In this document: piece by piece, positions 3,959 to 27,026 of the stretch
Position numbering within the stretch: the first letter of the stretch is position 1
Layout: each line of letters opens with the position of its first letter
From: a virus
Virus record (IMG/VR): IMGVR_UViG_3300035674_000010
Span: 1 to 29,479 of that record
DNA length: 29,479 nt
Reading direction: 5' to 3' (one strand)
Program-made: the position numbers and the translations under genes
Notes under the pieces: model-generated
Told to the model about the DNA's origin: nothing
Databases searched by the model: none
What the model saw: only the letters and a program-made list of their open reading frames with translations

Positions 3959-4336
3959 TTGCCTCCTGACCCCGCCCCCGCGCCCGCACGGAAGCGACCC
4001 TACGACGCGGCCCCGGTGTTGGCGGATATCGCTGACGGCCAACCCGGGTGGAGCATCAAGGAGGCGATCCGGCGGGACCTCCGGCTCAAGCGGGACGGCC
4101 GCGACATGGGGTTGGCAACCGTCCATCGCTGGATCGAGCACGGGGCGAGGGGACCGGACGGCGAGCGGGTGCGCCTCGGGGCCGCCCGAACGCCATCCGG
4201 GCTGGTTACCACCGCCGGCGCGATCGACCGGTTTTTCCGACAGCTGAACGGCCTCGACCTGCCGCCCGCGGGTGCCGCCCAGGCGAGGCGCGAGCACGAA
4301 GCGGCGCAGAGAGAACTGGACGCCGCCGGGCTCTGA
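3959..4336 (+). CDS. DUF1580-like DNA-binding protein (copy 2)
   Basis: A 125-aa paralogue of the protein at 1186. It has IKEAIRRDLRLKRDGRD followed by ATVHRWIEHGARG (HTH helix plus turn), VRLGAARTPSGLVTT (wing), AIDRFFRQLNGL, and the same ending (ELDAAGL). I take TTG 3959 as the start because GGGAGGT lies about 5 nt upstream and no ATG or GTG start near it preserves the domain. It opens the replication block, right after the iteron interval. That placement suggests an early regulator or an excisionase/initiator accessory, by inference. A different-frame TTG at 3873 also has AGGAGG upstream, but its product has no natural-looking composition. Confidence 0.65.
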   Translation: MPPDPAPAPARKRPYDAAPVLADIADGQPGWSIKEAIRRDLRLKRDGRDMGLATVHRWIEHGARGPDGERVRLGAARTPSGLVTTAGAIDRFFRQLNGLDLPPAGAAQARREHEAAQRELDAAGL

Positions 4337-4425
4337 TCCGGGTCCGTCCCGCGGCCAGAGACAACCTTTCGGCGAGCGGTGGCGAACCCGTAAAAGCCGT
4401 TCCTCGGCGGGGTGTTAATAACACA

Positions 4426-18049: not shown

Positions 18050-18487
18050 ATGGCAAAGAACCTGATTATCGCCGTCGATTTCGACGGGACCATCGTCGAG
18101 CACCGCTACCCCGAGGTCGGGAAACCGGTCCCCGGGGCGATCCGGTGGATGAAGGAATTCCGGCGGGCCGGGGCCAAGCTCATCCTGTGGACGATGCGGA
18201 GCCCCGACCGGGTCGACGGCACCGACCCGCTCCGGGACGCGGTCGAATACTGTCGCAAGCAAGGGGTGGAGTTCTTCGGGGTCAACGAGAACCCCGAGCA
18301 ACGGGATTGGACCAGTTCCCCCAAGGCGTACGCCCACGTGTACATCGACGGTGCCGCGTTCGGGTGCCCGCTGCGGGAGTCGCCGCGGGCCGGGGCACGT
18401 CCGTACGTCGATTGGGACGCGGTCGGCCCCGCCGTGCTCAGGATGATCGTCGGCGACAACGTCTGCGAGCCGACGTGTCCGGTCTGA
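18050..18487 (+). CDS. HAD-type phosphatase
   Basis: A 145-aa protein with the HAD motifs: AVDFDGTIV (nucleophile D10, acid D12), LILWTMR (T48), a lysine at SPKAYAH (K92) and the acidic VYID (D100). The GVNENPEQ and SPKAYAHVYID stretches are typical of a small phage/bacterial HAD group with no large cap domain. The usual second aspartate after YID is glycine here (DGAA), so metal binding may differ. The substrate is unknown; phage HAD enzymes may act on nucleotides or DNA/RNA ends. Start ATG 18050 is preferred over GTG 18047. It lies between the membrane cassette and the tailspike gene. Confidence 0.8.
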   Translation: MAKNLIIAVDFDGTIVEHRYPEVGKPVPGAIRWMKEFRRAGAKLILWTMRSPDRVDGTDPLRDAVEYCRKQGVEFFGVNENPEQRDWTSSPKAYAHVYIDGAAFGCPLRESPRAGARPYVDWDAVGPAVLRMIVGDNVCEPTCPV

Positions 18488-18498
18488 CCGAGGCCCCG

Positions 18499-20169
18499 AT
18501 GCCCGACAGCGACAGCCCCATCCTCACGGTCAACGTCGCCGACCCGGCCACCGGCCGGGCGGTCCGCGAGCTACACGAAGGCGATCGGCTCGCCCCGTCC
18601 GAGCTGCCGGCCGGCGCGACCCTGCTGGCCGTCGTCAACGGGGGGAAGGTCGGGAGCGTCCGGTTCGCATTCGATGGTCAGCCCGTCCGCGTCGAAACCT
18701 CCCCGCCGCTGTGCATCAGCGGCGACGCCGACGGGAAGCTCAACCCGTGGGACGGACTCCGCCCCGGTTCCCACGAGCTGATCCTGACCGCGTTCCCCGA
18801 GGCGGGCGGCAATGGCGAGCCGGTCACCACTCTCCCGATCCGCTTCATCGTTCTCGATCCCGCCACGCCCCGCACCGACGCCGACCCCGGCCTTCCCCCG
18901 CTCCCGCCCGGGGCGACCGAAACCCGCGTCCCCGCCGGCCAGCCGATCCGCCCGATGCTCGCCCGGGTTCGCCCCGGGGTGGATATCCGCGTTCTCCTCG
19001 AGCGCGGCGGAACGTGGCACGAGCCAATCCACTGGACGGCCGGCGGCCGCGGCCCCGACGCCCCGGCCGTGCTCGGGTCGTACGGGGACCCGGCCCGGCC
19101 GCCCCCGAGGATCCTCACCCGCACGGACGGGCTCGTGTTCGACCGCCCCCTAGCCGACGTGCTGATCCAGGGCATCGACTTCGAGGCGGTCGACTACCTC
19201 AACCCGGACCGCCCGGACCACGGGGGCATCCGCATCCGCGACCGGGTCGACCGCCTCGCGGTCCGCGACGTCGGGATCACCGGGTTCGCCGACTGCGCGG
19301 CCTACGAGCACGTGATCGGGGACCGCGGCCGGGGGCCGTGCGAGGACCACCTGTGGGATCGGTGCCGGTTCCTCGACGCCTGGGGCCACGGCCGCTACTC
19401 CGGGCAGGGGCTCTACGTCGCGTTCGCCCGCCGGGTGATGGTCCGGGACAGCCTGCTCGCCCGGTGCGGGATGCTCGGGGTGATGCCCGCCAAGCCGCGG
19501 TCCGGGTTCGCCCACGGCAACTACTCGCAGGGTTGGACGATCGCCCACCCGGACAAGGAACGGGCCGAGCGGGGCGAGACGGTCCAGACGTTCACGCGCG
19601 AGGTCCGGTTCGAGCGCGTCGTCGCCGCCGAGTGTGCCTGCTACGGGTTCCAGAACCGGGGCAAAGCCGGGGTGATCGAGGGGTGTTTCGCCATCGACGT
19701 CCCGATCCCGTACCTCGTCAACGGCCCCGACCCGTGCCGCGTGGCCGGCAACGTCGGGCTCACGAGCGGCACCGCCCACGGGTACGAGGGCAGCCCGCCG
19801 TGGGGCGGAGGCGGGATCGACTTCCACGCCCGCGGCGTGCTCGAAAACAACGTGCTGGTGCTGCTGGAGCGGCCGGCGAAGGGTGCCGCGTTCAAGCCGG
19901 CGGTCAACGTCGCCGGCCGGGCGGACCAGCCGTGGTGCCACCGCCGGCCGGTCCACGCGACGGGCACGGGCAACGTGACGGCCGGCTGGCCCAGGGGAAA
20001 GGCCGTGTGGGACGTGGGCCGCGGGCTCGGCCCGGTCCGCCAGCTCGACGCCGTCCCCCCGATCGACCTGGCCGGCATCCGGGCCGCGATCGCCGCCGCC
20101 CGGTCCGGGGCCGGGCTCGCCGGGCTGGCCGGCCGGCTCGGGGCCGTCGTGCGGGGGGCGGTGGGATAA
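18499..20169 (+). CDS. Parallel beta-helix tailspike-like protein
   Basis: A 556-aa protein. Residues 10-125 look like an Ig-like module (LLAVVNGGKVGSVRFAFDG, then GSHELILTAFP and IRFIVLDP). From about 180 to 470 it has short strand-turn repeats typical of right-handed beta-helices: VLIQGIDFEAVDYL, GIRIRDRVDRLAVRDVGITG, RVMVRDSLLARCGM, VRFERVVAAECACYGFQNRG, GVIEGCFAIDV, GVLENNVLVLLE. Such proteins are phage tailspikes or polysaccharide-active enzymes that bind or cut surface glycans. Catalytic residues cannot be assigned. The Ala/Gly-rich C-terminal helix may be for trimerisation. ATG 18499 lies 11 nt after the HAD stop. Confidence 0.65.
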   Translation: MPDSDSPILTVNVADPATGRAVRELHEGDRLAPSELPAGATLLAVVNGGKVGSVRFAFDGQPVRVETSPPLCISGDADGKLNPWDGLRPGSHELILTAFPEAGGNGEPVTTLPIRFIVLDPATPRTDADPGLPPLPPGATETRVPAGQPIRPMLARVRPGVDIRVLLERGGTWHEPIHWTAGGRGPDAPAVLGSYGDPARPPPRILTRTDGLVFDRPLADVLIQGIDFEAVDYLNPDRPDHGGIRIRDRVDRLAVRDVGITGFADCAAYEHVIGDRGRGPCEDHLWDRCRFLDAWGHGRYSGQGLYVAFARRVMVRDSLLARCGMLGVMPAKPRSGFAHGNYSQGWTIAHPDKERAERGETVQTFTREVRFERVVAAECACYGFQNRGKAGVIEGCFAIDVPIPYLVNGPDPCRVAGNVGLTSGTAHGYEGSPPWGGGGIDFHARGVLENNVLVLLERPAKGAAFKPAVNVAGRADQPWCHRRPVHATGTGNVTAGWPRGKAVWDVGRGLGPVRQLDAVPPIDLAGIRAAIAAARSGAGLAGLAGRLGAVVRGAVG

Positions 20170-20171
20170 CG

Positions 20172-21107
20172 ATGTTCGACGCCGACGCGACAAAGACGAA
20201 GCTGCTGACCGACCTGGAGCACGGCCTGGCGACCGGGCACGTGGTCTACGCCGGCGGGTCGGGGAACCCGGCCGGGTCCGCGAACCTCGGGTGGGACCCG
20301 ACGGCCGAGCGGCTCGCGGTCGGACTCCCCCACGCCAGCGCCAAGGGCAAGGTCCACTCGCTCGCCGCCGCCGGGTTCACGACCCACACGGACCCGCGGG
20401 GGAACACGGCCACGAGCGGCAACCTGTTCGAGGTCTCGACGACGGACGGCGGGTTCGGCGGGGCGTTCCAGGCCAACAGTTTCGAGCTGACCGGGAACTT
20501 CGCGTCCGACCCCGGGGCGAAGAACTTCAACGGCCTGTTCGGGTGCGCCGCGATCGCCAGCGGGATGTCGGCCAACTTCTCCGGCACGATCCGGGGGATG
20601 AACTTCTCGGCCGCCCACCGCGGCGCGGGGACGCTCGCCGGGGCGAACGGGGCGCAGGGGTCGGTCGTCAACTCGGGGGCGGGGACGATCACCGCGGCCG
20701 CCGGCGTCTTCGCCGGGGTGAACAACACGGGCGGCGGGACGGTCGGGGCGGCCCGGGCGCTGTGGGCCCAGACGCCGGTCAACAGCGCGGGGACGATCAC
20801 CGACACGTACGGCGTCTACGTCGACGCCCAGGCGGCCGGCACGCAGACCAACCTCCCGTACGGGGTCTACCAGGCCGGGGCCGCCGACCGGAACCACTTC
20901 GCCGGCCCGACCACGTTCGCCGCCGCCGTCCGGGTCGGGGTCTACACGGTGGCCACCCTGCCGACGCCCGGCACCGCCGGCCGGCTGGCGTACGCGAGCA
21001 ACGGCCGCAAGCCGGGCGAGGGGGCCGGGGCCGGGACGGGCGTCCCGGTCACCGACACGAACGGGGCGTGGTACAGCGATTACAGCGGAACGGCGGTGAC
21101 GGCATGA
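20172..21107 (+). CDS. Tail or head fibre-like protein
   Basis: A 311-aa Gly/Ala/Asn-rich protein. Degenerate repeats of the form NSGAGTITAAAGVFAGVNN and SAGTITDTYGVYVDAQAAG, ending in PYGVYQAGAADRNHFAGP, are typical of phage fibre shafts. The C-terminal VATLPTPGTAGRLAYASNG, then GTGVPVTDTNGAW, resembles a domain common at the end of phage fibres and other surface proteins. Host binding is the likely role. It starts 2 nt after the tailspike stop and overlaps the next gene (ATGA). Confidence 0.65.
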   Translation: MFDADATKTKLLTDLEHGLATGHVVYAGGSGNPAGSANLGWDPTAERLAVGLPHASAKGKVHSLAAAGFTTHTDPRGNTATSGNLFEVSTTDGGFGGAFQANSFELTGNFASDPGAKNFNGLFGCAAIASGMSANFSGTIRGMNFSAAHRGAGTLAGANGAQGSVVNSGAGTITAAAGVFAGVNNTGGGTVGAARALWAQTPVNSAGTITDTYGVYVDAQAAGTQTNLPYGVYQAGAADRNHFAGPTTFAAAVRVGVYTVATLPTPGTAGRLAYASNGRKPGEGAGAGTGVPVTDTNGAWYSDYSGTAVTA

Positions 21108-23950: not shown

Positions 23951-24376
23951 ATGTCACTCAAGGCTTACGGGGCGGTCCTGGAGTACGGGAACACCGCCGA
24001 CCACGCGACCGCGACCGCCTGGACCGCCGTCGCCCGCGCGAAGAGCATCACGCCGGGCAAGGTGTCCGCGGCCGACATCGACACGACCGTGCTCACCAGC
24101 CCGGACGAGGCCGAGGAGGTGCTCCCCGGGCTGGCCAGCAACGGCGAGTTCGAGGCCACCGTCGAGTACGACAAGACGGCCACGGGCACGCTCTACGGGT
24201 TCTTCCGGACCGTGAAGGCGTGGCGGCTCCGGTACGCGGACGATTCGGGTTGGAAGTTCAACGGGTACATCAACGAGATCGGGGACGACGAGGTGGTCAA
24301 CGGCGAGATCGTGACGACCGCGATCAAGATCAAGCCGACCGGGAAGCCCGTCCACGTCGCCGACTTCACCCCGTAA
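23951..24376 (+). CDS. Major tail tube protein
   Basis: A 141-aa tail tube protein. LEYGNTADHATATAWTAVAR, KSITPGKVSAADIDTTVLTS, EFEATVEYDKTATGTLYGFF, and ITPGK...DTTVL..PD..EE match short tail tube proteins of siphophages. It stacks as hexamer rings around the tape measure. GAGGAG precedes ATG 23951. It is followed by the frameshifted chaperone pair and tape measure gene, the expected order. Confidence 0.87.
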   Translation: MSLKAYGAVLEYGNTADHATATAWTAVARAKSITPGKVSAADIDTTVLTSPDEAEEVLPGLASNGEFEATVEYDKTATGTLYGFFRTVKAWRLRYADDSGWKFNGYINEIGDDEVVNGEIVTTAIKIKPTGKPVHVADFTP

Positions 24377-24429: not shown

Positions 24430-24777
24430 ATGATGAACCGCGAACAGATCCTCGCCACCGACACCGTCCGGACCGAGGCCGTGGCCGTCCCCGAGTGGGG
24501 CGGGACGTTCCACGTCCGCGGGATGAGCGTCGTCGAGATGGCGCGGTTCCACCGCGCGATGGACGCCGAGGACGCGGCCGCGCAGTCCCCCGCCCGCGTG
24601 GGCGTCCGCCTGCTGATCGCCTGCGTGTGCGACGACCAGGGGCGGCCCGTGTTCCGGCCCGAGGACGCCGAGGCGCTGGAGCGGCAGGGCGGGGCCCTGA
24701 TCGACCGGCTGTGCGTCGTCGCCAACCGGGTCAACGGCATCGGGCCCGAGGCGCGCGAGGCCGCCGAAAAAAAGTAG
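24430..24777 (+). CDS. Tail assembly chaperone, short form (G-type)
   Basis: A 115-aa protein beginning at ATG 24430 with GGAGAC upstream. It has the layout of gpG-type chaperones: a strand-rich N-terminus (AVAVPEWGGTFHVRGMSVVE), then helices (MARFHRAMDAEDAAAQ, DAEALERQGGALIDRL). It ends in EAREAAEKK-stop, with the A AAA AAG slippery run over the last codons. The short form coats the tape measure protein during tail assembly. Most ribosomes should stop here; a fraction shift to make the fused form described below. Confidence 0.82.
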   Translation: MMNREQILATDTVRTEAVAVPEWGGTFHVRGMSVVEMARFHRAMDAEDAAAQSPARVGVRLLIACVCDDQGRPVFRPEDAEALERQGGALIDRLCVVANRVNGIGPEAREAAEKK

Positions 24778-25097
24778 CCGACCCGGCGTTCCGGTTCTGG
24801 ATGCTCCTGGCGTGGCAGTGCGGCGAGCCCCACGCCGACCTCCTGCTGGAGCGGCTGACCCCGGAACAGTTCGCCGACGTCGAGGCGTTCGCCGACGTCG
24901 AGCCGCTGCCGTGCCGCCGGGCCGACGTCCGGGCCGCGATGATCGCCCTCGTCACCGCCCGGGCCGGCGGCGCGAAGGGGGTCAAGCTGGCCGACTTCCT
25001 CCCCGACTACGACGCCGCCCGCCGCCGCCGGGAGGAACAGGACCCGGCCGAGATGGACCGGCAGATGATGAAGGTGGCCGCGATGTTCAAGGGCTGA
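24430..25097 (+). CDS. Tail assembly chaperone, -1 frameshift fusion (GT-type)
   Basis: A 222-aa product made by shifting -1 at 24768-24774, reading EKK then VADPAFRFWMLLAW and on to 25097. The T part (24774-25097, 107 aa) has no start codon of its own near its beginning. It keeps clear coding character: a FRFWMLLAWQCGEPHADLLL helix, ALVTARAGGAKGVKLADFLP, and a charged MDRQMMKVAAMFKG end. A conserved frameshift in this place is established for long-tailed phages; here it is read from the sequence. The tape measure gene starts 3 nt after its stop. Confidence 0.82.
24768..24774 (+). promoter_or_regulatory. Programmed -1 frameshift site A AAA AAG
   Basis: Seven A residues (24767-24773) plus G give the heptamer A AAA AAG in the correct phase, immediately before the short form's TAG (24775-24777). 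This is the heptamer of E. coli dnaX. GAGG (24757-24760) lies 7 nt upstream, where an internal Shine-Dalgarno can stimulate shifting. A small CCGG-CGTT-CCGG hairpin may follow at about 24786-24797. Confidence 0.85.
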
Positions 25098-25100
25098 CGC

Positions 25101-27026
25101 ATGGCGACGGACATCTCAAAACTGGCCGTGCTGCTGACCGCGAACGCGGCCGGGTTCTCGGCCGGGCTCCGGACGGCCGCCCGCGGGGTCGACGGGTTCG
25201 CCGCCCACGTCGAGGGGACCGCGTCCCGGATCGGCGGGTTCCTCGCGTCGGCCGCCGCGCTCGGGGGCGGGATCGCCGCCGGGGCGTCCATCGGGCGGGG
25301 CGTCGTCGACTTCGAGCAGGCGATGGCCGACATGCGGGCGGCCGCCAACCCGACCGCCGACCAGGTCGTCGCGCTCGAACGGAGCATCCTCGACCTGAGC
25401 CGGGCGGCCGGGGTCGGCCCGTCCGACGTCGCGACCGCGTTCACCGAGCTGCTCAAGGCCGGCATGTCGGCCGAGCGGGTGATGGGCGGGGCCGGGGCGG
25501 CGGCCGTCCGGTTCGCCCGGGTCGGCCAGATCGACGTCGCCCAGGCCGCGACGGTGATGAACGACGCGCTCAACGTGTTCGCCCGCGAGGGGCTGACCGC
25601 GACCCGGGTCGTCGACACGCTGTCCAAGGCGGCCGACGCGAGCAGCATCAGCATCCACCAGATCACCGAGGCGTTCGCCATGTCGTCGGCCGTGTTCGGG
25701 ACGGCCGGGCTGACGCTCCAGGACCTGACGACCGCGATCGGCATCCTCGGCAACGCCGGGGTCAAGGGGTCGGACGCCGGCACGTCGCTCAAGACGATGC
25801 TCCTGCGGCTGTCCGCCCCGTCGGCCGAGGGGGCGACGGCGATGCGCCGGCTCGGGCTGAGCGTCCGGGACGCGGCCGGGCACATGCGGCCGATGCGGGA
25901 CATCGTCGGGCAGCTCCAGGCGCGGCTGGCCGCGCTCGACCCGGTCGCCCGGGACGCCGCCCTGAAGACGATCTTCGGGGACGACGCGATCCGGGCCGCG
26001 TCGATCCTGTCGACCCAGGGGGTGGCCGGGTGGGACGCCTTCACCGGCAAGCTGCGGGAGTCGCTGAGCGTCGCCCAGAAGTACGGGCAGCAGCAGGCGA
26101 CGTTCCGCGGGGGCTTCGCCGCGACCGGGGCGGCGCTCGAACGGTTCGGGATCGCGCTCGGCGGGCTCGTCAACCAGCCGCTCGCCCGGATGCTCGACGT
26201 GTCCGGCCGGGTGGTCGAGGCCGTGACCCGGTGGACGCGGGAGAACGGCGAGCAGATCAAGACCGTGCTCAAGTGGACGGCCGCCATCGGCGGGGCGATC
26301 TTCGTCGTCAACCGGTTCGTCAAGATCGGCACGTCCATCGTGATGATGTACAAGGCGATCACCAAGTCCCAGATCGCCACGCTCGCGTTCTCCGGCCCGA
26401 AGGGGTGGGCCGCCATCGCGGCCGGGGCCGGGATCACGGCCGCGTCCGTGTACGGGTTGAACCAGCTGTTCGAGCGGCTCGGGAACGAGATGGACCGGGC
26501 CGTCGTCCAGGCCGACCAGGTGGCCGACGCCCACCGGACCGCGGCCGACGCGACGAAGGACGTCGGGGCCGCCGCCGCCGCCGCGGCCGGCCAGCAGGCG
26601 GGGCTCTCGACGGCGATCGGGGACGTGATCCGCAAGCTGGAGGAACAGGTCGTCACGTTCGGGCTATCCCAGCGGGAGGCCGACCTGTGGACGCTCGCCC
26701 AGGAGGGCGCGACGGACGACCAGATCGGGCACGCCCGGGCGCTGGTCGACATGCTCGACGCGATGGAGGCGAAGCAGCGGGCGACCGAGCGGGCCGACCG
26801 GGACCGGAAGAAGGACGCGCCGCGGGCGCCGAAGACCTTCGGCGCCGAGAAGCTGACCGCCCTGGAGCGGCGGTTCACGGCCGGGTTCACGGCCGAGGCG
26901 ATGGGCCCGTTCGACAAGCTGCTGAAAGAGGAACAGCGGTCGGCCAAGGCGAACGAGCGGACGGCCCGGAACACCGACCGCATCGCCCGGGACCGCACCC
27001 GTGACGAGGTGGTGAGGATCGCGTGA
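25101..27026 (+). CDS. Tape measure protein
   Basis: A 641-aa tape measure protein. SKLAVLLTANAAGFSAGLRT starts the usual N-terminal helix. A TP901-type core follows: FEQAMADMRAAANPTADQV, LAAGVGPSDVA-like helices, SISIHQITEAF, VFGTAGLTLQDLTTAIGIL and GVKGSDAGTSLKTML, the last being highly typical. Hydrophobic segments lie at about 43-65 and 385-445; the C-terminus is Lys/Arg/Glu-rich coil. It sets tail length and is ejected with DNA. By the usual rule of about 1.5 angstrom per residue, the tail would be near 95 nm; this is an estimate. It starts 3 nt after the chaperone stop. Confidence 0.92.
   Translation: MATDISKLAVLLTANAAGFSAGLRTAARGVDGFAAHVEGTASRIGGFLASAAALGGGIAAGASIGRGVVDFEQAMADMRAAANPTADQVVALERSILDLSRAAGVGPSDVATAFTELLKAGMSAERVMGGAGAAAVRFARVGQIDVAQAATVMNDALNVFAREGLTATRVVDTLSKAADASSISIHQITEAFAMSSAVFGTAGLTLQDLTTAIGILGNAGVKGSDAGTSLKTMLLRLSAPSAEGATAMRRLGLSVRDAAGHMRPMRDIVGQLQARLAALDPVARDAALKTIFGDDAIRAASILSTQGVAGWDAFTGKLRESLSVAQKYGQQQATFRGGFAATGAALERFGIALGGLVNQPLARMLDVSGRVVEAVTRWTRENGEQIKTVLKWTAAIGGAIFVVNRFVKIGTSIVMMYKAITKSQIATLAFSGPKGWAAIAAGAGITAASVYGLNQLFERLGNEMDRAVVQADQVADAHRTAADATKDVGAAAAAAAGQQAGLSTAIGDVIRKLEEQVVTFGLSQREADLWTLAQEGATDDQIGHARALVDMLDAMEAKQRATERADRDRKKDAPRAPKTFGAEKLTALERRFTAGFTAEAMGPFDKLLKEEQRSAKANERTARNTDRIARDRTRDEVVRIA

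Follow-up and report, generated by a model that had tools for sequence, protein, structure and literature searches.

A probable programmed -1 frameshift of the lambda G/GT type in the tail assembly chaperone genes of a GC-rich virus

The DNA analysed here, a virus record of 29,479 bases with a GC content of about 72% (the window), very probably carries a programmed -1 ribosomal frameshift of the lambda G/GT type. An earlier note on this DNA had proposed such a frameshift in the tail chaperone genes; because protein families, gene order, and comparative conservation agree, the proposal now appears strongly supported. The site would be a textbook case of recoding in a lineage of viruses that has no near relatives in the collections searched, and one in which annotation would either overlook the downstream T domain or take it for a separate gene.

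Anatomy of the G/T junction

Gene order along the window runs from terminase, prohead protease, and capsid genes to head-tail and tail genes. The features around the junction, all on the plus strand, are as follows:

23951-24376, +: major tail (tube) protein, the upstream neighbour of G (Pfam Phage_TTP_12, E 2.8e-10; phrog_158, E 6.1e-16)
24430-24777, +: gene G, tail assembly chaperone, 115 codons plus TAG (phrog_344, E 1.7e-27)
24757-24760, +: GAGG, probable internal Shine-Dalgarno sequence, separated from the heptamer by 7 nt
24768-24774, +: slippery heptamer A AAA AAG, in phase, the sole AAAAAAG in the window
24775-24777, +: zero-frame stop TAG, immediately 3' of the heptamer
24774-25097, +: T domain in the -1 frame, 107 codons plus TGA at 25095-25097 (Phage_tail_T, phrog_337, codon usage)
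24801-24803, +: in-frame ATG inside T, a possible but unlikely separate start (from the sequence)
25101-27026, +: tape measure protein, the downstream neighbour of T (Pfam PhageMin_Tail, E 3.7e-40; phrog_1533, E 1.2e-66)

Read directly, the 3' end of G is GAG GCC GCC GAA AAA AAG TAG, and the -1 frame from 24774 starts GTA GCC GAC CCG GCG TTC and ends three bases upstream of the tape measure ATG. The earlier note had described an in-phase heptamer with TAG right after it, a GAGG 7 nt upstream, and an open -1 frame of 107 codons, and each of these is present at the positions listed above.

Four features by which a G/GT module can be recognized in sequence occur here together. A G-type chaperone gene lies between the tube protein and tape measure genes in the classic order, with a lambda-like tube protein; a T-type domain lies in the -1 frame and overlaps the end of G; an in-phase slippery sequence stands near the end of G; and the layout is conserved among relatives. 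The G protein matches PHROG 344, a tail assembly chaperone family, and scores below the cut-offs of the Pfam chaperone models. The -1 extension matches the Pfam model of lambda T (Phage_tail_T, E 2.8e-13; score 50.5 bits, cut-off 25.9) and phrog_337 (E 1.6e-13), and a further family, phrog_14766, matches G with its first half and T with its second half.

The -1 frame also has the coding character that was claimed for it. Third-position GC in the genes of the window is 93-99%, and the -1 frame of T has GC of 0.774, 0.462, and 0.981 at codon positions 1, 2, and 3, like real genes here; its codon log-odds are +0.78 bits per codon, whereas the remaining forward frames score -1.10 and -1.85. The bare presence of AAAAAAG was rejected as evidence: the single copy on both strands compares with 0.26 expected, and 22 of 100 shuffles contain at least one. 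It is the placement of the heptamer, not its presence, that is remarkable. Heptamers of the form XXXYYYZ occur at just 3 of 2,041 in-phase positions of six confident genes, the other two being GGGCCCG and CCCGGGT. Since GAA (12 of 95 for Glu) and AAA (3 of 68 for Lys) are rare codons in the five confident genes of the window other than G, the chance of reading GAA AAA, given Glu-Lys, is about 0.006.

We infer that slippage occurs in the window on the ribosome and at a rate that concerns a minority of ribosomes. Most ribosomes would halt at TAG and yield the chaperone G (115 residues); in the minority, the tRNA-Lys on AAA AAG would slip back one base, re-pair on AAA AAA, and read on from GTA into T, giving a G and T fusion, GT, of 222 residues. 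In a module of this type the two products are expected side by side at a fixed ratio. By analogy with lambda, G would coat the tape measure protein, and recruitment of the tail tube protein would fall to the T part, so that the G:GT ratio would matter for tail assembly. The GAGG probably boosts slippage through base-pairing to the 3' end of the 16S rRNA.

Two other regions of the window drew our attention. A 1,054-codon open reading frame at 4947-8111 matches phrog_10537 (E 3.3e-69, unknown function) and also phrog_19930, DNA polymerase/primase (E 1e-44). At 18145-21107 there are two long overlapping open reading frames, 18145-20169 (674 codons) and 18711-21107 (798 codons), neither of which has a match in Pfam or PHROG, and long chance frames are common at the GC content of the window.

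Relatives and other explanations

The scan for relatives used an alignment of four G proteins as its query, and 80 virus loci were taken of the 540 relatives matched; together with 54 loci from genome contigs they form a first set of 134 loci. The T domain was detected in relatives with a profile built from an alignment of the window T and ten phage T regions. In the first set, the -1 frame encodes a T-type domain in 128 of the 134 loci. The remaining six comprise one locus in which G runs off the contig (L140, left out of later counts), three without a T match (two of these extend only a short way downstream), one in which T scores in frame 0, and one in which it scores at +1. In L122, from a Dethiobacter metagenome-assembled genome, the T domain scores at +1 rather than -1 relative to G (about positions 4300-4400), which would reflect either a +1 shift or a mistake of the assembly.

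Among the 129 sequences with T at -1, the window counted, 108 carry a heptamer in phase within the final 75 nt of G. After dereplication at 70% G identity, it is present in 65 of 77 relatives of the first set with T at -1. The same 77 relatives have heptamers in the two wrong phases in 8 and 23 cases (long A runs contribute to these) and in phase in earlier stretches of G in 5, 4, and 2 cases. A second set of 160 loci, 158 of them with a G stop, lost 59 with a G of 70% or higher identity to the first set, and clustering of the rest gave 62 new representatives; 59 of these have T at -1, and 42 of the 59 have the heptamer. Both sets together hold 144 representatives, 137 with T at -1 and 108 of those with the heptamer (window included). 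The 107 representatives besides the window mostly use AAAAAAC (50) or GGGAAAC (30), and none of them has AAAAAAG, the heptamer used by the phages Bcep176, PHB09, and Evi. In the other 29 of the 137, the last 75 nt of G contain no XXXYYYZ heptamer. In relatives without such a heptamer, G often has CTG GGG GAA TGA or similar as its end (L119, L121, L127, and L134), and G GGG GAA is perhaps a G-run slippery site.

Direct reading of 14 sequences (13 phages and the window) showed a heptamer in phase close to the 3' end of G in 12, the two without being P1312 and Mae-JY09. In Escherichia phage Evi, AAAAAAAAG is followed by TAG, with heptamer and stop as in the window. A joined G-T gene is annotated in 6 of the 13 phage records (Bcep176, KS9, Dubu, phiSASD1, Jflix2, and RcCronus). 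Among 22 additional loci (L150-L171), 14 of the 16 counted have T at -1 and two, L152 and L163, have no T match; six minus-strand matches that had not been re-oriented (L151, L155, L157, L160, L169, and L170) were left out of this count. Further genome groups gave few loci and were left out of the statistics.

Single-protein scans with G, the tape measure protein, T (viral contigs), and the terminase (genome contigs) found no near relatives. The terminase scan of viral contigs gave one 30% relative, in whose record G found no match, and the best G match among the loci compared is 42% identical (L016/L017). The conservation described above is that seen among more distant relatives of this virus.

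These comparisons bear on three other ways to account for the junction. RNA polymerase might add one A on the run of seven A's, so that part of the mRNAs would fuse G and T. Other bacterial genes do exploit slippage on runs of A, for example Thermus dnaX, as a review describes, but the runs described there are of 9 A's or T's (PMC5009743). In addition, 30 of 107 relatives with the same layout have GGGAAAC, which contains no homopolymer of this kind, and the element that is conserved across relatives is the in-phase tandem-codon motif. We consider transcriptional slippage improbable. An extra A in the mRNA would give an EKK-VADP junction and a protein identical to the ribosomal -1 product; thus a junction peptide cannot tell the two routes apart.

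The earlier note had also stated that the -1 frame has no start of its own, which was too strong: ATG 24801 lies in that frame, 27 nt past the slip and 24 nt past TAG. Re-initiation there would make T a separate protein and the heptamer incidental. However, no Shine-Dalgarno sequence is seen upstream of this ATG by eye, and in aligned T domains residues encoded before it (P, R-F) are common to the relatives, whose T they align with; moreover, a separate T leaves the rare codons GAA AAA and the in-phase heptamers of relatives unexplained, and we regard it as very unlikely. Still less credible is that the assembly lost one A from what is truly a single G-T frame with no shift. Such errors do fall in homopolymers and the window is a single contig, but relatives from independent sources show the two-frame layout as a rule, which makes a lost base unlikely. 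A programmed ribosomal -1 shift is by far the most probable reading.

The upstream GAGG

The position examined for GAGG was preset by the earlier claim: GAG, followed by G, three codons ahead of the one that contains the first heptamer base. The window itself was left out of the codon tests. In the first set, GAGG stands at this spacing in 40 of 65 relatives, whereas 401 synonymous recodings gave a mean of 28.9 and a maximum of 37. Elsewhere in the G genes of the same relatives GAGG occupies 2.3% of in-phase positions, and in the window's own genes 41 of 1,969 positions. Where the preset codon encodes Glu, it is GAG in 44 of 47 cases, against 30.7 expected from each gene's usage (z 4.4); control codon -6, which is Glu-rich, showed no effect (GAG in 14 of 20, 12.8 expected). 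Among Glu codons followed by G, the GAG:GAA ratio is 40:3 versus 139:78 (Fisher p 1e-4), and the control codon gave p 0.79.

The second set alone leaned in the same direction without reaching significance (GAG in 25 of 27 against 22.0 expected, z 1.6; 19:1 versus 109:27, p 0.13). In the combined data, 59 of the 107 representatives left after dereplication have GAGG at exactly this 7-nt spacing, GAG is used in 69 of 74 cases against 52.7 expected (z 4.6), and the ratio is 59:4 versus 248:105 (p 3.5e-5). Dereplication is the sole correction for relatedness in these statistics: at 50% the excess is reduced (GAG in 25 of 29, 19.1 expected, z 2.5, p 0.085), and at 40% just 5 relatives remain, too few for any statement. 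In the window GAGG is read as GAG GCC (Glu-Ala), whereas Glu-Glu is commoner in relatives, and GAGG is kept regardless. One more codon departs from expectation: at the codon with the first heptamer base, Glu is GAA more often than expected in L016-L149 (GAG in 7 of 23, expected 15.0); the second set shows this more weakly (9 of 15 against 11.3), and GAA at this place lengthens the A run.

The earlier note had taken the spacing of GAGG to suggest a dnaX-like stimulator. The recurrence of the same spacing and the excess of GAG speak for an upstream stimulator, although the second set alone falls short of significance; taken together, there is moderate support from sequence for a conserved internal Shine-Dalgarno element that may act as a stimulator. 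For the long-tailed phages of PHROG 344, we lean slightly towards the view that GAGG with a fixed 7-nt spacer is a second conserved G/GT element, which would be kept by synonymous selection on one Glu codon and would tune the G:GT ratio. Upstream elements of this type are not new in kind, as Sharma and colleagues describe them: sequences of the GAGG type are counted as stimulatory when they lie 6-17 nt before the second heptamer base, and a conserved element is given for 3 of 13 IS and prophage clusters (PMC4066793). A limited, not exhaustive, literature search found no report of a fixed-spacing GAGG across G/GT phages. Should the recurrent GAGG hold up, the G/GT signal of these phages would include an upstream stimulator at a fixed distance, which would help to find shift sites in unannotated phages.

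Comparison with dnaX and with known G/GT systems

E. coli dnaX has the identical heptamer A AAA AAG and, like the window, a Shine-Dalgarno-like sequence upstream, although the spacer is 10 nt in dnaX and 7 nt in the window. In other respects the two differ. The dnaX site has a downstream stem-loop, shifts at about 50%, and meets a stop one codon later in the shifted frame, according to a review (PMC5009743). In the window, by contrast, stretches of 60, 80, and 120 nt downstream fold no better than shuffles (z 1.69, -0.36, and -0.62), and the shift would lengthen the product. The designation of the signal as dnaX-type in the earlier note is thus apt for the heptamer and perhaps for GAGG; it does not extend to the stem-loop, as judged by the fold z-scores, or to a shortened product, given the 107-codon open frame.

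The G/GT tail assembly chaperone frameshift of lambda and its relatives was reportedly described by Xu, Hendrix and Duda in 2004 and is covered by a review (PMC5009743). The window resembles lambda in gene order, in a G-type chaperone with a T-type domain at -1, in a heptamer at the end of G, and in an extended product. It differs in the heptamer, which is GGGAAAG in lambda, in the zero-frame stop directly after it, and in the upstream GAGG, which the lambda site is not known to have. For the lambda frameshift, the review gives a product ratio of 30:1 (PMC5009743), and in an HK97-like chaperone cluster the measured frameshifting of two genes was 6-7% (PMC3711429).

Also comparable are Bcep176 and KS9 of Burkholderia, PHB09 of Bordetella, and Escherichia phage Evi, all with T at -1 and a T domain about 30-33% identical to that of the window. 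The heptamer is shared with Bcep176, PHB09, and Evi, and the immediate TAG with Evi, whereas in Bcep176, KS9, and PHB09 the stop lies 33-36 nt beyond the heptamer. The closest G family is that of the PHROG 344 chaperones of actinobacterial and proteobacterial phages (e.g., Dubu and phiSASD1), which have T at -1 and in many cases GAGG 7 nt before the heptamer, although their heptamer is mostly AAAAAAC or GGGAAAC. Set beside these systems, the site in the window would be an ordinary further member of the known lambda-type G/GT frameshift class.
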